DNA of 64,000 nt, taken from Trichomonas vaginalis G3. Taxonomy: Eukaryota; Parabasalia; Trichomonadida; Trichomonadidae. Positions 8,476 to 57,369 of the stretch are shown here, one piece after another (position 1 is the first letter of the stretch; every line of letters begins with the position of its first letter). The DNA is taken from the NCBI RefSeq assembly GCF_026262505.1, contig NC_067203.1:12164392-12228391 (forward strand), written 5' to 3'. Made by a program: the position numbers and the translations under genes. The notes below the pieces were generated by a model. The model was given only the letters and a program-made list of their open reading frames with translations, did no database searches and had not been told where the DNA came from.

Positions 8476-11400
8476 ATTGTCAATACCGATGAAGGGTCAA
8501 GCAAGCAGAATCGAGGAGGCAGGCAGTCTTTCTTTTTTTTCTGTTTTTGTTTTTTACAAGCTCTCCTACCAAGATCAACTAAACAAGAAGATTAGAGAAA
8601 CAGATTTTTCTGCAAGCAAAACATCACCAAAAGTATAACTACATTTTCACCGATAATGACCAAGCTGCTCTTCGAGATCAAGATTATTGCCAATGTAATT
8701 AATGATAAAATTAAGAAATTTCACAGAAGACCAAATTTACACGCAAGGAAAGATACATCACAGTAAATGTTAGTGGTGATTGTAAGTGGCGCTTACAAGA
8801 CATTTACATGTCGGTCATTTAGCAAACTAATCAAACAGTAGATTCAAGTGGACCAACAATTTAAGATCTGAGGAATTCAAAAAAAGGAAATTCAAAATTT
8901 CTATCCAAAAATATCAGAAGCGGTGCTTCAATTGTCAAATACCATGGGAAGGTCAAGCAAGCAGAACGAGGAGGCAGGCAGTAAGTTACAAGCTCCTCCA
9001 GCACACCAGATCCCCAACCCACCCACCACTCCAGCCCACCCACCTACCACACCAAGCACCCAAAGATAGAAACAGGATTTCTGCAGCAAAACATCACAAA
9101 AAGTATACACATTTTTCACCGATAATGGACCAAGCTGCTCTTCGGAGACAACGATATTGCATGGTAAATAATGATTTAAAATTAAGGGGAAATTCAACAG
9201 AAGACCAAATTACACGCAAGGAAGGATACATCACAGGGTAAATGTAGTGGTTGTGTAAGTGGCGCTACAAGAATTTACATGTCGTCATAGCAACTAATTC
9301 AAACAGTAAATCAGTGACCACAGAAATTTAGATCTTGAGAATTACAAAAAGGAAATCAAAATTTACCAAAATATCACAAAGCGGTGTTCAATGTCAAATA
9401 ACCGATGAAGGTCAAGCAAAGCAGAATCGAGGAGGCAGCAGTTTACAAGCTAATGATAGAAAACAGGGATGGATCTGCAGCAAAAATCACAAAAAAGATT
9501 GTTATACTAACTTTTCACGATAATGACCAAGCTGCTCTTCCGAGACAAGATATTTGATGGTAATAAGATAAAAATAAGGAAATTCACAGAAGACCAAATT
9601 TACACGCCAAAGAGGAAGCGATAACATCACAGTAAATGTTAGTGGCTGTTAAGTGGCGCTTACAAGACATTTAACATGTCGTCCATAGCAAACTAATCAA
9701 ACAGTAGATCAAGTGACCCACCAGATTTAAAGGAATCTGGAAGAGCAGGAATTCAAAAAGAAAATCAAAATTTTATCCCCAAAAATCACAGCACCGGTTG
9801 CTTCATTGTCAATACCGATGAAGGTCAAGAAGCAGAATCGAGGAGGCAGGCAGTTTTTTTTTTTTTTTACAAGCTCAAAAGTAGAAAACAGGGAATCTTG
9901 CCAGCCAAACCATCACAAAAGTTATACTACATTTTTCACCGATAATGACCAAGCTGCTCTTTCGGTATCAAGATATTCGAATGGGTAATAATGATTATTA
10001 AAAACTTTAAGAAAATTCACAGACGACCCAAAATTTACACGCAAGGAAGAATACATCACAGTAAATGTTAGTGGTGTAAGTGCGCTACAAGAACATTTAC
10101 ATGTCGTCATAGAACTAATCAACAGTAGAAATCAAGTGACCACAATTTAAGATCTGAGGAATTTCAAAAAGGAAATCAAAATTTATCCAAAAATCAGCGG
10201 TGCTTCAATTGTCAATCCGAATGAAGGTCAAGCAAGCAGAATCGGAGGAGGCAGGCAGTTACAAGCTTCAAGATAGAAACAGGGATTCTGCAGCAAAACA
10301 TTCACAAAAGGTATTACTAACATTTTTACCGATAATGGACCAAGCTGCTCTTCCGAGATTCAAGATATTGATGGTATATGATAAAATTAAAAATTCACAG
10401 AAGACCAAATTACACGCAAGAAGGATAACATCACAGTAAATTGTTAGGGATGTAAAGTGGCGCTACCAAGACATTTACATGTGCGTCATAGGCAACTAAT
10501 CAAACAGTAGATCAAGTGACCACAGATTTAAAGATCTGAGGAATTCAAAGGAAATCAAAAATTTATCCAAAAATCAGCGGTTGTCTTTCAATTGTCATAC
10601 CGATGAAGGCAGCCAAGCCAGAAATCGAGGAAGGCAGGCAGTTACAAGCTCAAGGATAGAAACAGGATCTGCACAAACATCACAAAAGTATACTACATTT
10701 TTCACCGATATGACCAAGCTGCTCTTCCGAGATTCAAGATATTGATGGTAATAATGATAAAATTAAGAAATTCAACAGAAGACCAAATACACGCAAGGAA
10801 GGATACATCACAGTAAAATGGTTTAGTGGTGTAAGTGCGCTACAAGACATTTTACATGTTCGTCATTAGCAACTAATCACAACAGTAGATCCAAGTGACC
10901 ACAGATTTAAGATCTGAGGAATTCAAAAAAGGAAATCAAAATTTATCCAAAAATCAGCGGCTGCCTTCAATTGTCCAATACGATGAAGGTCAAGCCAAGG
11001 CAGAATCGAGGAGGCAGGCCCAGTTACAAAGCTCAAAGATTAGAAACAGGGATTCTGCAGCAAACATCACAAAGTATACTACATTTTCACCGATAAGACC
11101 AAGCTTGCTCTTCGAGATCAAGATATTTGAGGTAATAATTGATAAAATTTAAGAAATTCACAGAAGACCAAAAATTTACAACGGCAAGGAAGGATGACAT
11201 CCAACAGTAAATGTTTAGTGGTGTAAAAGTTGGCGCTACAAGACATTTTTACATGTCGTCATTAGCAACTAATCAAAACAGTAGATCAAGTGACCACAGA
11301 TTTAAGATCTGAGGGAATTTCAAAAAGGAAAATCAAAAATTTATCCAAAATCAAGCGGTGCTTCAATTGTCAATACCGATTGAAGGTCAAGCAAGCAGAA

Positions 11401-12870
11401 ATCGAGGAGGCAGGCAGTTTTACCAAGCTCAAGGAATAGAAAAACAGGCATCTGCCAGCAAACATCACAAAAGTATACTACATTTTCACGATAATGACCA
11501 AGCTGCTCTTCGAGATCAAAGTATTGATGGTTAATATGATAAAATTAAGGAAATTCCACAGAAGGACCAAATTACACGCAAGGAAGATACATCACAGTAA
11601 ATGTTAAGTGGTGTAAAAGTGGCGCTACAAAAGACATTTACATGTTCGTTCATAGCAACTAATCAAACATAGATCAAGTGACACAGATTTAAGATCTGAG
11701 GAACTTCAAAAAGGAAAATCAAATTTATCCAAAAATCAGCGGTGCTTCAATTGTAAAACAATACCGATGAAGGTCAAGCAAGCAGAAATCGCAGAGGCAA
11801 GGCAGTTACCAAGCTCAAGATAGAAACAGGATTCTGCAGCAAACATCACAAAAGTATACTACATTTTCACCGATAAATAGCCAAGCTGCTCTTCAGATCA
11901 AAAAGATATTGATGGTAATAATGAAAAATTTAAGAAATTCACAGAAGACCAAATACACGCAAGGGAAGGATACTCACAGGTAATGTTTAGTGGTTGTAAG
12001 TGGCGCTACAAGACATTTACATGTCTAATCAACTAATCAAACAGTAGATCAAGTGAACCACAGATTTAAAGAATCTGAAGGAATTCAAAAGGAAATTCAA
12101 AAATTTTATCCAAAATTCAGCGGTTTGCTTCAATTGTCAATACCGGATTGAAGGTCAAGCAAGCAGAATCGAGGAGGACAGGCAGTTACAAGCTCAAGTA
12201 TAGAAACAGGACTGCAGGCAAACATTCACAAAAAGTTATACTACATTTTCCACCGATAAAGACCAAGCTGCTCTTCGAGATCAAGAATATTGATGGTGTA
12301 ATAATTGATTAAAAATATAAGAAATTCACAGAAACCCAAAATTACACGCAAGGAAGGATACATCACCAGTAAATTGTTAGTTGGTGTAAAGTGCGCTACA
12401 AGACATTTACATGTCGTTCAAGCAACTAATAAAAATAGATTCAAGTGACCACAGATTTAAGATTCTGAGGAATTTCAAAAAGGGAAATCAAAATTTATCC
12501 AAAAATCAGCGGCTTGCTTCAATTGTCAATTACCGATGAAGGTCAAGCAAGCAGAATCGAGGAGGCAGGCAGTTACAAAGGCTCAAGATAGAAACAGGAT
12601 CTGAGCCAAACATCACAAAAAGTATACTACATTTTCACGATAATGACCAAGCTGCTTCTTCGAGATCAAGATATTTGATGGTAATAAATGATAAAAATTA
12701 AAGAAATTCACAGAAGACCAAATTACACGCAAGGAAGGGATTTACATCACAGTAAATTGTTTAGTGGTGTAAGTGGCGCTACCAAAGACATTTACCATGT
12801 CGTCATAGCCAACTTAATCAAACATTAGATCAAGTGACCACCAGATTTAAGATTTCTGGGAATTCATTAA
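8476..12870. repeat. About 11 tandem units of a ~366-bp coding repeat
   Basis: The marker 'ccaagctgctcttc' recurs at about 8669, 9129, 9527, 9949, 10340, 10717, 11099, 11499, 11882, 12271 and 12651. Observed spacing is mostly 377-400 bp, consistent with a 366-bp (122-codon) unit inflated by insertions. Units 1, 2 and 4 contain extra low-complexity inserts (T-runs near 8528-8550 and 9856-9869, and a CCCACC-rich patch at 8990-9060) that the others lack. The last unit diverges at about 12870. Confidence 0.85.
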
Positions 12871-24877: not shown

Positions 24878-25175
24878 GATTCAATTTAGGTATAGCAACT
24901 CATACATCAATTCAACGATCTATTTATTTAAAATATCAAATTTGATTGCATCATTATTAATATTGATGGCTATAATATGTTGAGAAAACATACTCAAAAA
25001 AGAGTATTCAACACTAATTTCTAAACTAATATCTTTACTTAAAAAAATCATTCACGCATTAATCATTTTGTACTGTTATCTTTCAAGCCTCACATGAGTA
25101 CAATTTATACTTTTAAGGCTTTGTTTTAATTTATTATTATTAAATTGAAGTTTTAATTTGAATAAAAAAAAAAAA

Positions 25176-25325
25176 AAGGTAGTTGGGGCTTCCAAGGCAC
25201 TTCGTGCTCTAGCCCTGATGATGTTTAGTAATAAATGAAGTTTTTATTCGAAAAATTGTAGTCTTTCTGCGGTCGAAAACATTATATAATTAATGGTGTC
25301 GCTTTTTCACAAATTATATATGTTT
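25176..25325. repeat. Terminal inverted repeat, left end of copy 2
   Basis: Starts after a 14-A run with GGTAGTTGGGGCTTCC, then a hairpin-like core and 'gatgatgtttagtaataaatg'. This is inverted relative to 8185-8257 and 42600-42672. Further inside, 'ttaatggtgtcgctttttcacaa' matches copy 1's right end. A poly-A tract directly precedes the TIR here and at copy 3 (44725), so it may be part of the element or a preferred target. Confidence 0.8.
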
Positions 25326-29184: not shown

Positions 29185-30010
29185 TCATTCTTCCTCTTTG
29201 AAGTTATCGAAATATTCTGTTATTTTTTCCTTCAGTAATGGTAAGTCTTCTTTGAATGTAAGTATTGTGCAACCTTTGATGTCATAGTGTGTTTGAGGAA
29301 GAGTACTTTTGACAATTTCCTTTATTTGCTCATTCGGTGTCATTGAAATCGGTAAGTTTTCACGATAGAACCAGTTTCTGTCAGATTTATATATCTTAGC
29401 GAGGTCGTAAAAGCTTTTTGTTTCTTCTGACTAAATGCAACATAACCATATCTTTATCTTCTTCATTTTCCATCTCTTCAGTATATATCATATACTTATA
29501 ACTCTTTTCCTTTCCTTTTGGTACTGAACGCGGTATTCTTTTCTGTATGCTTTTGTCTTTGGATTCAATGACTTCATCTTTTGCATGAAGTTTCTTTTCC
29601 ATCTCTCCACGTTCTGCTTTATATAGTTCATCTAACATCATGAAAATATAACAAGCATAACGAGGTGAAGCCCACATTGCTACAGCGTTTACTAAAAGTC
29701 TATGAACATAATAACCTTTCAAACCAGGAGCCAAATTCTTGCGATTTTCGTACGGAATCTCTTCTCTCGGTTTTCCGAGGGAAGCAATCATATGAGGAAA
29801 TTCTTCTAAAAGTTCTTTTGTCTGTTGGTTTTCAAACCAATGATATGCTTGCTTTGTAGAACGAAGAGCATTCATTATACTTTGCATTTGGTACATGTCA
29901 TCTTTGACCGAACGAATGAGGCGAAGTTGTTTGTTATATTGTATGTACTCGTATTCTTCATTTATGGCTTCATGAACGATAGCAATTGTTGTGTTCTCTA
30001 ATGTTGACAT
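29185..30010 (-). CDS. KilA-N domain protein (one frameshift near the C-terminus)
   Basis: The segment around residues 95-130 (GYYVHRLLVNAVAMWASP followed by RYACYIFMMLDEL) is the core of a KilA-N DNA-binding domain, common in large DNA viruses and phages. A charged coiled-coil (AERGEMEKKLHAKDE) and a basic region follow. The homologue at 56314-57207 stays open to the end, and comparison shows a 2-base net deletion near 29415 ('gctttttgtttc' against 'gcttttgttgtttc'), after which the frame continues to a stop at 29185. Start: the ATG at 30010, 12 bases after TTTTATCCTGTATG. It likely acts as a DNA-binding regulator. Confidence 0.82.
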
Positions 30011-32699: not shown

Positions 32700-33106
32700 A
32701 GCGTTATTTTTTCTAACTAATGAAATTCATTATTTTTGTGCTGAATTCAATAAAAATAAAGTTTATGTTAGCATGTTAGATCTAACATTCTACCCTAAAA
32801 ATTTTTTTTTATTTTTTCTATCTTAAGGAAATTCATGAGAATTCATGAGTTTTTGACGAAGTGCAAAAGTTCACTTCGTGTCATAATGCAAAAAAATAAT
32901 GCTGAAAACACACAAAATTCATGAGTTTTTGACGAAGTGCAAAAGTTCACTTCGTGTCATAATGCAAAAAAATAATGCTGAAAACACACAAAATTCATGA
33001 GTTTTGTGTGTTTAGACCATGTTAGAAAACAGGTGAGATCTCACCTCTTCACCTAAAATATATTTTGTCTGATTTACATCTAATGAAAAAGTTTAGAAGA
33101 ATTTTC
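32700..33106. repeat. Intergenic block: two palindrome types and a 76-bp tandem repeat
   Basis: ATGTTAGATCTAACAT (32773-32788) is a perfect 16-bp palindrome with an AGATCT centre. From 32841, a 76-bp unit is repeated just over twice (starts 32841, 32917, 32993), each copy carrying the hairpin CGAAGTG..CACTTCG, which recurs at 57304-57330 in copy 3. A second AGATCT-centred palindrome, AGGTGAGATCTCACCT, lies at 33031-33046. No protein is encoded. Confidence 0.75.
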
Positions 33107-42472: not shown

Positions 42473-42672
42473 ACACCATTAATATGATGTAAATAACAAC
42501 GGTTTTGGTTTTGTCACCGGCTGGTCGGCTGGGGTTCGGTCCTCCTCTTGGGTCTTGGGCAAAATTTCTTAGGGCTAGAAGGGGCGCAGCCCCTGGAAGC
42601 CCTCCGAATATAAACTTCATTTATACTAAACATCTTCAGGGCTAGAAGGGGCGCAGCCCCTGGAAGCCCCCA
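42473..42672. repeat. Terminal inverted repeat, right end of copy 2
   Basis: Two similar GC-rich blocks (42570-42605 and 42639-42670) each contain AGGGGCGCAGCCCCT, separated by 'gaatataaacttcatttatactaaacatc'. The sequence from about 42423 inward matches the start of copy 3 (45060-45118) in inverted orientation. The outer end is GGAAGCCCCC. Confidence 0.8.
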
Positions 42673-44724
42673 TTGCCTTGCCTTTATATTGATATAATTT
42701 TCAATTGTTCTTTCACTTCAATCCAATATATATATAAAAACCATTTAAAAGTGCACATTTAATACTTTTTGATCTAATTAAATTTCTTTTCAAACATTCA
42801 TAATAAACATTTTCAAAAAAAAATTCAATTGCTCATCAAAAACTTCAATCCAATATATATATAAAAACCATTTAAAAGTGCACATTTAATACTTTTTGAT
42901 CTAATTAAATTTCTTTTCAAACATTCATAATAAACATTTTCAAAAAAAAATTCAATTGCTCATCAAAAACTTCCAAATTGAAAACAATTTAATTAATTTT
43001 TTTACTAAAATCCTCAATATTGCCCTAATTGTTTGATTAAATTTCCAAATTTTACCGAATTAGATTTTACACTTTTCTGACTTTTTGTCAGGGAACGAAG
43101 CGACACAAAAAATGTGGGAAAGTGTAATTCTCAGTAATATGATTAATTTTTCCATTTAACGCCGAACAGCATTTGAATCAAAAATAATCGCATGGCTGAG
43201 AATTTAATTTTTGGAATTCAATATTAAAATTATTCTTCTCTTCGATCAATGATAAATCTAGAAAATCATTTTCACAAAACTTTCTGAATTCTTCTCCGTT
43301 GAAAAGTTTCACGTTATATTATGTATTTCATATTTTCCTAACTATCATATATTTATTTTCAAACAAGAATTAATAATATATTGCAACTCAAAATTAAATT
43401 TTTTCTAAAGATTTTTGACGTTATGTATTTTAAAGAATTCTCGGCAAACATTTATATAAATGATTTTATTTTTGAAGTTTTTGAAGTAAATTACTCGAAT
43501 GATTCAAATTGGGTATGAAGAATCAGTATTTAGGTTAAGGATCTCGTATGGAGAAAAATCTTCTTCAACTCTAAACTTCAGTTTGGAGACACTTTACAAA
43601 TTGTAAACTTCAAATTGGCAAAATATATATATAAATATCAGTCCTGTTCCTAAATTTAACAAGCTTGTGCTCAAACTTGATATGTAGGAAGTACTTAACA
43701 TTTAATTAAGAATTGGCAAATTATATCAAGGAATATTTTTGTAATTTCATGAATAATATAAATGAAAGTAATCAACATAGAAATGCGAAAGCAAACTCCC
43801 TTAGGCTAAACTGATTTTATTGGGAATCAATGAAAAATATTTTAGATTTAATTTTATCGATGATCTAAGAGAGATCATTAATAGATTAGATGAAAACTAT
43901 AGTAGTTTTATTCGTATTATCAAATAAAGATTATTTTAAATTGAATATGCATAAAAAATCTGTGATATGATATTTTGTGGTAGTGACTAATATCTATAGT
44001 TGAAATATAATATAAACTCGCCATAAATGCTGATTAGCATTCAAGAAATAAAAATTCAAATAATATATCTAAATAAATATTGGAACTATTTCTTGGGATC
44101 AGTAGATCATTGAAATCCCAAAAATATTGCCCATGAAATCAAACATTGGAAGCTCATCTTGATAGAGAACATATACAAAAAAAATATTAGAGAGTTTTAA
44201 AAATTATTTAAGGGTGCACCCGTATGTACGTTTATTTGAGAGGAGGAGGATTACCCTCTCAATTTTGAGGGATTCGTTAGTTTATTTTCTCGATGAATAT
44301 GCAATAAAATTTGATTTTTACCTTATCAATATACTTCATATAATATACACATGTTCATGTAAAAACTTTTTTCCAAAATCCTCAAGAATTAAGGGATTTT
44401 TGAATTTTAAGAATTTTTTTCGAATTTTTTCGAAAAAAAAAATATTTTCAGAACAGCCTTAACGGCTAAGATTTAGGAACAATGTTAAGTATCAAAAAGA
44501 AAGGAGGTCTGATATAGACAACATATATCGTTGAAGGTTGAAAAAATCTCTAATATTTGAGCCCAAAATTTCAAATTTTAATTTTTTGAAAAAAGAGGCC
44601 ACCCGTATGTACGTTTATTTGAGAGGAGGAGGATTATATTTTTGAAAGGGTGAAACATTATGAATATGTTAATTATATAATAATATGTATTATTATAAAA
44701 AAGAAAAAAAAAAAACAAAAAAAG
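42673..44724. other. Host DNA between two Mavericks; short repeats, no gene
   Basis: AT-rich with no supported coding frame. A 127-bp unit starting 'cttcaatccaatatat' is duplicated in tandem (about 42715-42841 and 42842-42970). A 37-bp direct repeat 'cacccgtatgtacg..gaggaggaggatta' occurs at 44216-44252 and 44600-44636. Short frames at 44214-44462 are rich in Phe/Ile/Lys and not convincing. Confidence 0.55.
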
Positions 44725-45108
44725 GTAGTGGGGCTTCCAGGCGCGTTGCGCCCTCTAGCCCCGAAGATGTTTAGTATAATGAAGTTTTTTTTTTCTTGGG
44801 ATGGGCCTCCAGGCACTTCGTGCCCCTCTAGCCCATAAAAAATTTCTGAGGACGAGCCAGCCGGTGACTTTTTTGTAGAGCACTCAAAATAGTATAACTT
44901 TGTCCGGACAAGTAAGGGTCTATCGTCGCTACAGGAAAAGTTACGGGCGTTCAAAGGAAGTATACTTTGAGAAGCCTTTTCTCCATTTTAAAACAAGATA
45001 GGATGGTTATTTTACAAAACTAACAACACTTTGACCGAGTAGTTTTTTGTGCTGAACAAAAGTGTCATATAAACAACCGTCAAAAACCGCTTTTTAACTT
45101 CACTTAAA
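44725..45108. repeat. Terminal inverted repeat and subterminal region, left end of copy 3
   Basis: Two GC-rich blocks (44732-44766 and 44801-44834) face each other like those at the right end of copy 2. 'gccagccggtgac' and the last 60 bases ('aaaagtgtcatataaacaaccgtc' through 'cttaaaatgccacgtaag') match 42423-42530 inverted. A poly-A-rich tract precedes the first block. Confidence 0.78.
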
Positions 45109-45528
45109 ATGCCACGTAAGCTACGTAAGAATATACGTAAGAGGAAGAGAGCATTGAAACATCCAATAGTAAAACTGACACCACAACAACAGTTGCAACA
45201 ACAAATTATGAATGACCCCACTATGTTGCAACAAATGTCAAGCAACCCTATGCTTTTAAACCGAGTTATAGGTGCACAGAGTGGAGGTTTAAGAGCGGCA
45301 CTTTTAGCGAAAATGGCAGGCTATGGTGGAGCTGCAGACGGAACAGCTTATAACCCTCAAAGTCAAATGAATTTGAGTTCACTCAAAAATCAAATAACAG
45401 ATGTCAAAAAGTCAAACATAGACATACAGAAACAAATAAGTGAAAACGAAAAGAAACTAGAATATGACAGACACACAAAGAAACTAAATGAGTTAAACGT
45501 AGAGAAAAAGAAGAAAGAAGTGTTGTAA
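45109..45528 (+). CDS. Basic, Gln-rich, coiled-coil protein, 139 residues
   Basis: N-terminus RKLRKNIRKRKRALKHP, then a Gln-rich patch (QQQLQQQ), a Met/Asn-rich helix, a Gly-rich link and a C-terminal coiled coil (about residues 90-139) full of Lys and Glu. Its first 12 bases are part of the sequence shared with the end of copy 2. The arginine/lysine start suggests DNA condensation in the virion, as in core proteins; this is inferred from composition. Confidence 0.65.
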   Translation: MPRKLRKNIRKRKRALKHPIVKLTPQQQLQQQIMNDPTMLQQMSSNPMLLNRVIGAQSGGLRAALLAKMAGYGGAADGTAYNPQSQMNLSSLKNQITDVKKSNIDIQKQISENEKKLEYDRHTKKLNELNVEKKKKEVL

Positions 45529-46614
45529 GACGAGTTACGGAAAGTGAGGTGAACCGAAAAAGTGACACTTATTTGGTCGGATAAATTCCCTATATATTTA
45601 CTTGTCAAAAAAAATCAGACTTTTTTTGCTTTAAAAAATTTATAAGTTAATTATTGAGAACGAAGGTAAAAGGAAATGGATATCTCTTACCTTTCATTCC
45701 CTCGAGAAAGTTCAAAAACTTGGGTGCAATCAGTTCTGATTGCACCCAAGTTTTTGAACTTTGTATAAGGAATTGTTGGCTATGATGTACTGATCATGAA
45801 TCAGTACATCATAGCCAACAATTCCTTCGCAAACAGCGGGAAACTTTGTCCGAATAGTTTAACATTCAGACAAAGTTTCCCGCTGTCAGAGAGGGAATGG
45901 AAGGGTAAGAGGTATATATTCATAATGTATACCTCTTACCCTTTCATTCCCTCGAGAAAGTTCAAAAACTTGGGTGCAATCAGTTCTGATTGCACCCAAG
46001 TTTTTGAACTTTGTATAAGGAATTGTTGGCTATGATGTACTGATCATGAATCAGTACATCATAGCCAACAATTCCTTCGCAAACAGCGGGAAACTTTGTC
46101 CGAATAGTTTAACATTCAGACAAAGTTTCCCGCTGTCAGAGAGGGAATGGAAGGGTAAGAGGTATATATTCATAATGTATACCTCTTACCCTTTCATTCC
46201 CTCGAGAAAGTTCAAAAACTTGGGTGCAATCAGTTCTGATTGCACCCAAGTTTTTGAACTTTGTATAAGGAATTTTGGCTATGATGTACTGATCATGAAT
46301 CAGTACATCATAGCCAACAATTCCTTCGCAAACAGCGGGAAACTTTGTCCGAATAGTTTAACATTCAGACAAAATAATTTAAAATAATGAAAAAGTTGAT
46401 TTGTGAATCATTGAAATATTAATGCTGTTATATATATATATATCAGATGATATAAGATGATTTTTTTAAATAAAAAATAAAATTTAATTTTTTAATTGTT
46501 AAAATAAGAATAGTAAGCTTGACAAGTAATTTAAGTTTTTGCTTTGTAAAGTTATTTGGTTGGCAAATGCATTGTGTCACTTTTTGTTTGAGTTCACTTT
46601 CCGTAATTTGTCTT
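45527..46614. repeat. Large imperfect palindrome around the hairpin array
   Basis: The 42 bases at 45527-45568 ('aagacgagttacggaaagtga..aaaaagtgacac') and the 41 bases at 46574-46614 are inverted copies of each other at about 85 percent. They flank the whole hairpin array and end exactly at the stop of one gene and the start of the next. Confidence 0.75.
45683..46374. repeat. 250-bp tandem array made of four consecutive hairpins
   Basis: The unit repeats with exact 250-bp spacing ('ctcgagaaag' at 45701, 45951 and 46201), about 2.8 copies, nearly identical. In the first unit: hairpin 1 has 27-bp perfect arms (45707-45733, 45736-45762) with a 2-base loop. Hairpin 2 has 28-bp perfect arms (45767-45794, 45800-45827) with a 5-base loop. 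Hairpin 3 has 18-bp arms (45833-45850, 45869-45886). Hairpin 4 has 26-bp arms with one G-T pair (45891-45916, 45928-45953). Spacers are 4-6 bases or less. The 46200 copy lacks one T in hairpin 2 and stops inside hairpin 3. The open frames through it are a by-product. Function unknown. Confidence 0.92.
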
Positions 46615-49279
46615 ATGATAGAAGAACAACTGAAAGAACTAAGTACAGAGGAATATGCGAAAAAAGTGTCAGAAAAAGCAGCAGAAGTAGCAAAAATGGA
46701 ACAAGATGTTATAAATTTGAAAAACCATACTACTCAATATAAAGTACTGAAAGATGAAGAAATAAAACAAAAAGCCCTGAAGACATATATGGATAGCGAT
46801 GAGTATAAAAAAGAAGTTGAAGCAAATGTAAAGGCAGAAAAACTTTTACAGTTGCAAAACCAAACCGTACAGTATGAAAACTTAGCACAAGAAAGTAAAA
46901 ATAACGACGCAGCCATGCAAAAGGCAATGAAAAGCGCAGAATATATAAAAGCTAATAATGACTGGTTAGATGCCCAAGCCAACGCTAAAGCAGCCCAACT
47001 TATAGGGTCAATAAGGACAAAAATACAAGCGGATGAAGACAGTTCAAATGAAGCTTTAATGAATGCTGACTTTAAGAACGCCTTCGAAGCTCTTCATAGT
47101 AAGGTGAAACTAGTGAACGACTTCTCATCTGGAAAGAAACTGAAGTCTGAAGGTTTCGACAACGAGTTAAGAGAAGTAGCACAAAATATGACGAAAATAA
47201 CAGATGCAGCAACGAGACAGGCAGTTCAAAGTGCCTATGACGCCGTTAGAGCAACTGTTGTGGAAAGTCAAGAAAAAGAGTTACAACAGACCAAAACAGA
47301 CCTAGTAAATGCTTTCTTAAGAACGAAAAGTCAGGTAGGACATTATGCTGCAGATGGAACATATGTGCCAGCTGGTGGAACTTATATACCAGCTGGTGGA
47401 ACTTATATACTAGCTAGTGGAACTTATATACCACCAAACCCTCCAAGAGAAGCACCTGCACCAGGACTACCTAAAACATTTACATCGTCACATGAACACA
47501 GACACAGGCATGCACCAAAACCAACACAACAACAACCAACACAACAACCAACAGTTCAAAACACTGCACCACAACCAACAGTTCAAAACACTGCACCACA
47601 ACCAACAGTTCAAAACACTGCACCACAACCAACAGTTCAAAACACTGCACAGCAACAACCACAAACAGAGCAAGGACATAAAAGAAGTAGAGAACAAGGA
47701 AACCAAGAATTCTTAAAAATGCTTAAGGAAGACTATGGTTACCCAGATACTCTTGACTTTAGTGACAGATATAAAGAAGCTATTAGAAAGTTCAAGGAAG
47801 GAAATACTGACCCGAACCTATTTAGCTTTATGGTTCAGCACCAAATGGGATATAATTTCAAACCTGGAAAATACAAGCTCGCTAAGGGATATGATTTAAT
47901 AGCATATCATCCAAATGACATGGATGAATTTACTCCAAGATATTTGGTGTCAGAGATAAATGATAATTCAACTATCTTCATGAAACGCGTAAAAAATAGA
48001 GACGGAACGAAAGAAGAAAGGGTTATGAATGCGGATGGCTTAAATAGGGAACTTGTTAAAAACGGTCTCGGAATATATGAAATGCCAGCAGATGAGGTAC
48101 AAGAAACTCCACAGGAAGAAGTTCAGATACAACCAGACATGGAAGAAATAGTTCAGCAACAACAGCTAGAAGAGCCTGAAGGAAACAAACAAGTCCATCC
48201 TTTGGAAACTAACTTCACAGAACTAGATGAAGATTTGGAACAGCCGAAAAATCTTGACCCTCAACAAGAGTATGCGGAGAATATGGAATCTTTCCAAGAG
48301 TCTAAGAAAAATTCGGCTGACATAGTAGAAGAATATCGAAAAATGTTCGCCGACATACAAAAGACTCCAACATCAGATGAAAATATTCAGCATAGAATGG
48401 AAGAACTGAAAGAAAGTGTACGCAAATACAACAATCCTTTTTACTTACGACCATATAACGTTCAATCTTTGGCTGAACTCGGTGAAAATAAAAGGTTAAA
48501 TTTCAACAAAACATATAGAAATGAAACATTGTTTAAAGTTCATTCAGAACCTAACCAAGATGGAAACAAACCTACTTTTGTTTCTGCAGACTATGGAACT
48601 ACAATGAGATGGGGTCATAAAGCTAATCCGGATAGGTGGTTCATAAACTTACAACCACAATTCCAAGAAGTTGTAGACGCAATGGAAGTGAATGGTGAAC
48701 CAGATATAGCTGGTATTTTCAGCGCGGCTTTAATGCCATTGAAAGATATGAAAGATGCAGATATTTTGAACCAGTATGAAATGAACATGGCTGATGGAAA
48801 TATAACACCTGACGTTCTAGAACATTTATCTCAAAGAACTACACAGAACCATAGAGATGGTATATTTGGTGAAGAGTTTAGAAAGAAAGTTAGGGAGAGA
48901 GAAGGAAGAGAACCTATTGTACATGACCTTGCAAACGAAAGTTTGCAAAATGTCATAAAAACTTACTTTGCAGACAATGAACCGAGAAGGGATGAATATT
49001 TAAGAAAACTCAAATGGACAGTACCAAATGAAATGTTAGTATTGAAAAACATGTTCCTTGACAAAATAAAACCAACTACAGAAATAAATGACGCAAGACT
49101 GAAACATTGGGTAAAAGCTTTCCCATTCACAAAAGATATTATTGGTAACATGGAAAGAAAACCAGAATGGCTACAAAAACATATATTTGGAAACGAGCAT
49201 ATTCCATGGACAAGCTCTGTTTGAAGAGCTTGAACCGGAAACTCAGGAAAGAGTCATGCAAACAATACGCGAAGACTAA
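46615..49279 (+). CDS. Large repeat-bearing element protein, ~887 residues (one frameshift)
   Basis: The frame reaches back to 46519, but the ATG at 46615 follows the flank palindrome and starts a normal helical domain (MIEEQLKELSTEEYAKK). N-terminal 250 residues: Lys/Glu/Gln coiled coil. Then a GGTYIPA-type 8-residue repeat (about 47365-47430), a His/Pro stretch, and four copies of PTVQNTAPQ (27-bp repeats, about 47549-47650). The C-terminal 500 residues look folded, with RYLVSEINDNSTIF and SADYGTTMRWGHK. A one-base shift near 49207 changes the end; the other frame continues with ALFEELEPETQERVMQTIRED to 49279. Likely a structural or scaffold protein; family not recognised. Confidence 0.7.
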
Positions 49280-56313: not shown

Positions 56314-57207
56314 TTACTCTACTTGTTTGAAGTTGTCAAAATACTCTGTTATTTTTTCCTTTAACAATGGCAAATCTTCTTTGAATGTAAGTATTGTACA
56401 ACCTTTCATATCATAGTGTGTTTGAGGTAACGTATCTTGAACTATTTGTTTCACATCTTCATTTGGGGTCATTGAAATCGGTAAGTTTTCGCGATAGAAC
56501 CAATTTCTGTCAGATTTGTAAATCTTAGCAAGGTCGTAAAAGCTTTTGTTGTTTCTTCTGACTAAATGCAACATAACCATATCTTTATCTTCTTCATTTT
56601 CCATCTCTTCAGTATAAATCATATACTTATAGTTCTTTTCCTTTCCTTTTGGTACCGAACGTGGTATTCTTTTCTGAATGCTTTTGTCTTTTGCTTCAAG
56701 CTTGTTCTCTAGCTCTTCGCGTTCTTGTCTGTGAATTTCGTCAAGAAGTTTACAAACATACCAAGCATAACGAGCTGAAGCCCACATTGCTACAGCATTT
56801 ACGAGAAGTCTATGAACATAATATCCTCTCAAACCGTTTGGCAATTTTTCACGATTTTCATAGAGTTTTGGCGACTGGGGTTTTTTACCTACTCGCTGTT
56901 CTTCACTGTTTTCATAGAGTTTTGGCGACTGCGGTTTTTTACCTACTCGAGTTTTTGCGACTACGAGAAAATCCGTAGTCGAATTTTCAGCTTCATTTAA
57001 TAGTTCAATAGTGCTTTGGTTCCTAAACCAGTCTTGTGGTTTCTTAGTATCTGGAGCAAAACATGCTGTCAAAATACTTTGCATTTGGTACATATCGTCT
57101 TTGACCGAACGAATGAGACGGAGTTGTTTGTTAAACTGTATGTACTCATATTCTTCATTTATAGCTTCATGAACGATAGCAGTTGTTGTGTTCTCTGTTG
57201 TTGACAT
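56314..57207 (-). CDS. KilA-N domain protein with internal duplication, 297 residues
   Basis: Intact homologue of the gene at 29185-30010. Start taken at 57207, in line with that gene. KilA-N core: GYYVHRLLVNAVAMWASA, then WYVCKLLDEI. Before it, VGKKPQSPKLYENSEEQR is followed directly by a second VGKKPQSPKLYEN copy, a coding duplication at 56855-56955 not present in copy 2. The C-terminal third (DLAKIYKSDRNWFYRENLP) is conserved in both copies and is probably a second domain. DNA-binding regulator likely. Confidence 0.83.
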   Translation of the reverse strand: MSTTENTTTAIVHEAINEEYEYIQFNKQLRLIRSVKDDMYQMQSILTACFAPDTKKPQDWFRNQSTIELLNEAENSTTDFLVVAKTRVGKKPQSPKLYENSEEQRVGKKPQSPKLYENREKLPNGLRGYYVHRLLVNAVAMWASARYAWYVCKLLDEIHRQEREELENKLEAKDKSIQKRIPRSVPKGKEKNYKYMIYTEEMENEEDKDMVMLHLVRRNNKSFYDLAKIYKSDRNWFYRENLPISMTPNEDVKQIVQDTLPQTHYDMKGCTILTFKEDLPLLKEKITEYFDNFKQVE

Positions 57208-57369
57208 ATCTGTCTTTACATACAAAATAAAAAAATAAATAAAAATAAAACTAACTTTATTTTTTCTATTTTGTATAAAAGATATGATTTCAGGGATTTT
57301 TTTTACGAAGTGTCAAAGTTCACTTCGTCAAAAAATAACAGTTATATAATGAAAAAGTGTCATTTTTTC
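57208..57369. promoter_or_regulatory. Divergent promoter with two box types
   Basis: On the left, TTTTATTTTGTATG (reverse) and the AATAAAAATAAAACTAACTTTATTTTTTC hairpin element. In the middle, the hairpin ACGAAGTG..CACTTCGT at 57304-57330. On the right, AAAAAGTGTCATTTTTTC ending at the ATG at 57370; this second box type also precedes 57605 and 60680 and contains a TCA initiator-like core. Confidence 0.55.

Follow-up and report, generated by a model that had tools for sequence, protein, structure and literature searches.

The array of hairpins in the window, by which we mean the whole 64-kb stretch of Trichomonas vaginalis DNA analysed here, is an insertion and is not a component of the Maverick in which it lies. 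It is likely that the array forms the core of a non-autonomous IS481EU-type element inserted in a Maverick gene, that its repeated module is older than this element, that the hairpin arms are kept paired mainly by switching between arms, and that duplication sets the number of units. The kind of insertion is ordinary and its core is unusual: a mobile, ordered module of four hairpins that is common to several transposon families and whose arms co-evolve. The coordinates of the features in the window are collected in Table 1.

Table 1 The hairpin array, the element that carries it and the Maverick gene that it splits (window positions).
Feature	Position	Strand	Basis
Split Maverick gene, 5' part	45109..45520	+	ORF; contiguous with 3' part at empty sites
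Target-site duplication GAAG, left copy	45517..45520	+	
Non-autonomous IS481EU-like DNA transposon (group A), 1,100 bp, carries array	45521..46620	.	Flanks, ends, empty sites
Left terminal inverted repeat region, TGTTGTAAGACGAGTTACGGAAAGTGA...	45521..45568	+	Inverted repeats I12, I21
Tandem array, about 2.8 units of 250 bp, four hairpins each	45690..46373	+	
H1, unit 1: 27-bp arms, loop TT (2), perfect	45707..45762	+	
H2, unit 1: 28-bp arms, loop CATGA (5), perfect	45767..45827	+	
H3, unit 1: 23-bp arms, one mismatch, loop AGTTTAAC (8)	45833..45886	+	
H4, unit 1: 30-bp arms, two mismatches, loop CAT (3)	45891..45953	+	
Right terminal inverted repeat region, inward TATCATAAGACAAATTACGGAAAGTGA...	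46574..46620	-	
Target-site duplication GAAG, right copy	46621..46624	+	
Same Maverick gene, 3' part, Pfam DUF4106	46621..49224	+	PF13388, E 2.6e-269

The first-pass annotation described tandem 250-bp units built from four back-to-back hairpins, and this was confirmed by TRF and by a hairpin scan, at about 2.8 units. TRF reported a tandem array at 45675-46373 with a period of 250, 2.8 copies and 99% matches. The two full units (45690-45939 and 45940-46189) have the same sequence and are followed by a truncated third. All 10 hairpins found at the threshold of the scan (score 14, loop up to 30) in the 64-kb window fall within the array. Hairpin H3 had been given 18-bp arms and an 18-base loop; the hairpin stands, while those dimensions correspond to the same hairpin cut at its mismatch, beyond which the arms reach 23 bp and the loop shrinks to 8 bases. 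Both mismatches in H4 are G.T. The DNA fold of one unit had an energy of -111.8 kcal/mol (z -27.6), as compared with a mean of -21.97 and a standard deviation of 3.25 for 200 dinucleotide shuffles, none of which folded as well (0/200).

Several other repeats were seen in the window. A tandem array with a period of about 381 bp at 9063-12866 is unusually rich in indels (82% matches, 15% indels), and two tandem duplications are perfect (42715-42973, 127 bp; 32840-33005, 76 bp). Poly-A tracts leading into a GC-rich stretch, GGTAGTGGGGCTTCCAGG..., occur repeatedly, at 25161-25265, 42513-42670 and 44697-44792 and in the sampled loci L009, L033 and L045. Two related ORFs about 27 kb apart (29396-30010 and 56314-57225) share stretches that are 75-94% alike, and the second of these contains a KilA-N domain.

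Proteins encoded in the window match DUF4106, DUF4107 and DUF3839, families typical of T. vaginalis, and the Mavericks and IS481-like elements agree with published accounts (PMC7845603, PMC10045372). The array had been placed between two genes, and this proved wrong: it sits within an insertion (45521-46620) that splits a single gene. Two other Maverick copies, at L014 and L030, have this insertion site empty, and at L030 the ORF that precedes the array in the window and the DUF4106 ORF that follows it form one open frame. Because the two flanking "genes" are contiguous at these empty sites, they are one gene. The ends of the element in the window are TGT..ATA, and its terminal inverted repeat regions contain the inverted repeats I12 (45526-45560/46581-46615, 80%) and I21 (45557-45568/46574-46585). 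The DUF4106 gene has received three separate insertions in three Maverick copies (window 45520, L014 and L030): the left flank of L014 has a second group-A copy in the gene at another point, and L030:2920-4125 is a different element inserted at yet another point.

The first-pass annotation considered the array as a Maverick/Polinton feature, such as a replication or packaging signal. The Maverick around the array, and the Maverick sequence adjoining it at many other loci, speak for this reading. Against it stand the target-site duplication, the empty sites at L014 and L030, the differing insertion points, and copies such as those at L010 and L027, where nothing in the 2.5-kb flanks matches the window. 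A Maverick-encoded signal was ruled out by the empty sites together with the dispersed copies; the packaging signal found no support, and we assign the reading as a whole practically no probability. The earlier text had itself remarked that presence of the unit as a general genomic MITE would make it a passive insertion, and this is what the genome shows: a search of it (180.85 Mb, 86 contigs) for the unit returned at least 351 matches, its own included (the best 40 of 911 candidate places scored).

Copies were sampled in 36 stretches holding 41 arrays, which with the window gave 42 arrays. The number of units per array ranged from 0.74, in an array that adjoins an N run, to 13.75. The 42 arrays were divided into 21 with the left flank of the window (group A) and 21 with other flanks (group B). 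Twenty other arrays match the left flank of the window up to about 45521, and in 14 of these the right end was likewise found, within 2.5 kb. In group A, likeness to the window stops near 45521 on the left and at 46620 on the right, beyond which there is unrelated DNA or other parts of Mavericks. In group B, 19 of 21 arrays have a common right flank and the other two end at N runs; these arrays are not independent, because a single cluster on C4 (10.34-10.71 Mb) supplies 11 of them and the tandem block L027 on C3 another three. At L016:542-6672, opposed arrays are flanked by N runs, possibly assembly gaps, and at L038:98-1196 a hairpin tandem array of different sequence (period about 132 bp) lies beside a group-A copy.

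An exact 4-bp duplication borders 11 of the 15 group-A copies with both ends read, nine identified by script and two, L016.0 and L016.3, by eye (ATTG/ATTG); since these two have a common flank, the count by distinct sites is 10 of 14. Among the remaining four, L014 was off by one base, L038 had three of four bases, and L025 and L032 had no duplication. The count leaves out six of the 21 group-A copies, in which the right end was not found within 2.5 kb (L009, L019, L020, L023, L028 and L033). A 9-bp match at L014 had raised the possibility that the element of the window was a Mutator-like element (MULE); this was rejected on the grounds that 4 bp is the commonest exact duplication length (nine of 15 copies by script, and 6 to 9 bp in 0 of 15).

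That the repeat was made or multiplied by the assembler is very improbable. Tandem arrays are error-prone and unit numbers may be wrong, N runs lie beside the opposed arrays of L016, and the sampled loci are partly non-independent (the C4 cluster and the L027 block). Against an artefact speak the many arrays with differing flanks, unit numbers and internal variants, as well as single-unit copies within MULEs.

The affiliation of the element was established through a fuller copy. Locus L046 (C4:17013180-17015510) contains a 2.3-kb group-A copy with both ends, a GTAT duplication, hairpins H1-H3 only and an ORF of 328 amino acids. The best NCBIfam match of this ORF is IS481 (E 2.2e-23; its 83 bits fall short of the bacterial cut-off, 224), and its match to the Pfam rve integrase core (5.7e-10) is over the cut-off. 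A second IS481-like ORF, in L025, shares 41% identity with it over 143 residues. Since the L046 copy combines the same ends and three of the hairpins with an IS481-like transposase, the window element is assigned to the IS481EU/Banshee type of T. vaginalis. Published features of IS481EU include TNT..AYA ends and duplications of 4 or 15 bp (PMC10045372). This terminal signature is present in groups A (TGT..ATA) and B (TGT..ACA) and in a further element described below, element C (TCT..ACA); in another, element D, one side ends ..AGA, which departs from it. Duplication lengths near 4, 15 or 24 bp, the range used for IS481EU, were found in all four: 4 bp in A and C, 15 bp in the one group-B copy read (L021), and 4 bp in one copy of D. 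The terminal inverted repeats of group A, about 48 bp with mismatches, agree with the expectation of mostly under 50 bp.

The likeness to the IS481EU (Banshee) elements of parabasalids thus extends to the ends, the short terminal inverted repeats, the 4- or 15-bp duplications and, in the fuller copy, the IS481-like DDE transposase (PMC10045372); the hairpin array comes on top of these features. Word searches found no "hairpin", "palindrom-" or "tandem" in the main text of PMC10045372 and no "hairpin" in PMC2725143, and literature searches over titles and the starts of abstracts returned no described hairpin array in IS481EU-like elements. The transposase gene has the hairpins on its 3' side in L046 (A), in L031 (B), where an IS481-like ORF stands between the group-B left end and its array, and in the L025 element (E), which has one clear hairpin 3' of its IS481-like gene. 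On C4 (G000, 16.98-17.18 Mb), IS481-like ORFs of about 225-326 amino acids recur, many at steps of about 6.3 kb, which suggests a large tandem repeat carrying a transposon.

The module is not confined to this family. Locus L045 contains a Mutator-like element (MULE domain PF10551, E 8.6e-8, at L045:7308-8609) that carries the unit in inverted orientation, 5' of its gene, with the H1 loop AA. One end of the MULE lies near q991, a query position in the copy search. Among the 40 MULE copies scored, 17, including that of L045 itself, run uninterrupted through one unit, 20 have between two and four units in tandem (four at C5:24130-27492), one covers the unit in a shorter match, and two stop before it. 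Element C is inserted in the MULE transposase gene of L045 and consists largely of hairpins homologous to H1-H4; its core has at least 39 other copies, at 98-99% identity, among the matches listed. In L030, element D repeats a 250-bp unit 3.9 times in tandem. Its four hairpins are different ones that keep to the same alternating types, and at least 489 matches to it were counted. Likeness to the hairpins of the window was scored against 500 palindrome-preserving shuffles and gave z values of 13.8 for C and 6.2 for D. For element D the assumed order of hairpins scored 47.25 and the order with H1 and H3 exchanged 47.75, and because the exchanged order scored slightly higher, H1 and H3 are indistinguishable there. 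Alternation of the two hairpin types through strong divergence is nevertheless supported for this element by the sequence comparison. The 250-bp four-hairpin module probably predates the window element, being part of the 3' region in several IS481EU-like transposons.

Elements C and D are strongly diverged in sequence, yet their arms still pair. The hairpins of A, C, D and other copies were aligned in the assumed order, with 4 to 9 sequences per hairpin. In the four alignments 92, 98, 90 and 96% of cells pair, and 15/30, 13/23, 19/28 and 14/27 pairs have changed on both sides (61/108 in total). For the number of paired cells, the both-side changes and the covariation score, 0/500 shuffles reached the observed value in any of the four alignments, and for further pair types, as many as observed arose in 52/500 shuffles for H3 and 17/500 for H2; these shuffles ignore relatedness, and the fractions are not probabilities for related sequences. 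As a control that allows for relatedness, the partner column was slid by 1 to 3 positions, whereupon pairing fell to 26-54%. The substitutions were tallied after four MULE rows had been dropped as near-copies of group A. Of 581 cells, 524 are Watson-Crick, 12 G.T, 14 A.C and 31 other. Pairwise double changes comprised 180 of transition type and 194 of transversion type, and comparisons with one side unpaired gave 60 G.T, 67 A.C and 126 other; these pairwise counts depend on the assumed hairpin order and are not independent events. The changes are thus compensatory, rich in transversions and without an excess of G-U.

RNA stems under selection show a G-U excess and a bias towards transition-type changes, unlike the pattern found here. 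The substitution pattern accordingly argues against selection on one RNA strand and is consistent with change at the DNA level. It bears directly on the proposal that the module is transcribed and works as a hairpin RNA, as a source or a sponge of small RNAs. Stems of 23-30 bp could serve as Dicer substrates. T. vaginalis has a Dicer orthologue and two PIWI-like Argonautes, and small RNAs of about 34 nt cover its transposon genes (PMC7845603). The near-equal numbers of G.T and A.C, the equal share of transversion-type double changes and the Rfam search count against the proposal, which we consider improbable. That search returned 88 weak matches, mostly to miRNA hairpin models, and none at the gathering score; a conserved RNA family was ruled out by this result together with the lack of G-U excess. 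The H3 core also gave 0 matches to the viral contigs of IMG/VR, in which records of this genome may be absent.

Loops supplied a second kind of evidence. They were tallied in array orientation after identical arrays had been removed (50 distinct arrays kept of 63). Loop H1 was TT in 119 and AA in 24 of 143 copies, and H2 was CATGA in 144, TCATG in 7 and CATG in 3 of 154. For H3, 122 of 129 copies had AGTTTAAC, 4 had GTTAAACT and 3 had indel forms. The flipped loops are exact reverse complements that stand next to unchanged arms in near-identical copies, and no loop differing by a single substituted base was seen among the tallied copies. No inversion of the H4 loop was found among 125 copies (identical arrays not removed). 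The number of independent inversions is smaller than these counts, since one inversion may be passed on by descent or by conversion. All four combinations of the H1 loop with H2 pair 22 are present, and therefore recurrence or recombination is required. Correction of the arms is not fast, because mismatches persist in many copies: G.T at H4 pair 10 in 101 of 117 (identical arrays not removed) and C.A in H2 in 29 of 154.

Template switching between inverted repeats has been described as leaving homogenised arms together with inverted spacers (PMC8604942, PMC8794818), and both were observed here. The Discussion of PMC8794818 favours an interstrand route, and that paper describes loop inversions as very rare in rRNA and the role in maintenance as less clear. 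Flipped loops beside unchanged arms point to template switching between arms, or to cruciform inversion; the latter, or recombination between arms, would leave an identical trace. In the proposed mechanism, DNA synthesis (or strand exchange) would switch from one hairpin arm to the other. The switch would copy one arm onto the other, so that the arms stay complementary, and would occasionally flip the loop to its reverse complement, while tandem duplication would determine the number of units. The arms change together at the DNA level, probably because copying switches between them. We infer that the agent is template switching in replication or gap repair, and that it would be sufficient without selection on structure.

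The first-pass annotation took the intact arms as a sign of use. This does not follow: perfect arms need no direct selection, because an inter-arm process acting on DNA appears to keep them alike and to flip the loops. Its related idea that the palindromes act as hairpins or cruciforms holds in an evolutionary sense. The palindromes might still be selected as DNA structures, as a cis-acting part of the transposon, for example a subterminal site that the transposase binds or bends, or a cruciform required for excision or gap repair. In three elements (L046, L031 and L025) the module is found on the 3' side of an IS481-like transposase gene, and hairpins adjoin the left end in all 33 group-A copies inspected, of 40 listed (20 in the loop tally, 12 with arrays and L046, with the remaining seven outside the count); losses of hairpins are under-sampled there, because the 169-bp probe for group-A copies ends at the array. 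The alternation of two hairpin types through strong divergence and the strand-symmetric compensation also favour such selection. Against it, the number of units varies from 0.74 to 13.75, the unit is 5' of the gene in the MULE, and the loop inversions reveal a structural mutation process that acts anyway. On balance we regard selection on DNA structure as possible and somewhat unlikely. A fuller version is unlikely as well, by a shade more: that four alternating hairpins per 250 bp form a functional DNA-structural cassette of several IS481EU-like families and a MULE, in which structure and not sequence is conserved, which would be extruded near one end to aid gap repair and internal deletions or the transposase, and which template switching would keep perfect.

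The lengths of the elements read range from 847 to 5,559 bp, and the right edge of the group-A array varies (for example GTTTCCC, as also in L046, ACAAA, ACATT and GTATA), with these four junctions falling inside H3 or H4. The hairpins may act as breakpoints when short derivatives arise; the junctions themselves are no test of this idea, because copies were sampled on account of their hairpins.

Template-switched inverted repeats share with the present hairpins their matched arms, compensatory multi-base changes and spacer inversion (PMC8794818, PMC8604942), and the coding palindromes of Nematomorpha are likewise long and perfect (PMC6649704). In those systems each hairpin stands alone, in an RNA gene, in yeast coding DNA or in a mitochondrial gene, whereas the array studied here is an ordered four-hairpin module that is mobile and tandemly repeated. 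The CMITEs of corals resemble it in having an internal region that is common to MITE families and more conserved than the terminal inverted repeats, and in forming tandem arrays (PMC2872659). They differ in that they are related to piggyBac and that the MITE itself is said to form the arrays, and their abstract mentions neither a series of hairpins nor covarying arms. Bacterial REP/BIME palindromes are composite palindrome arrays tied to a transposase (PMC2817692); they differ in being bacterial and in using a tyrosine transposase, and are likened here by description only.

Covarying stems are normally taken as proof of a functional RNA. Here hundreds of copies display strong, strand-symmetric covariation with flipped loops, as template switching at the DNA level predicts, and this natural data set makes a debated idea testable by long reads. 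The pattern of loops and arms offers a mechanism by which perfect palindromes could be long-lived without direct selection. Within one genome, two unrelated transposon superfamilies have this hairpin module in common, and a link between short derivatives and hairpin-rich breakpoints appears possible.
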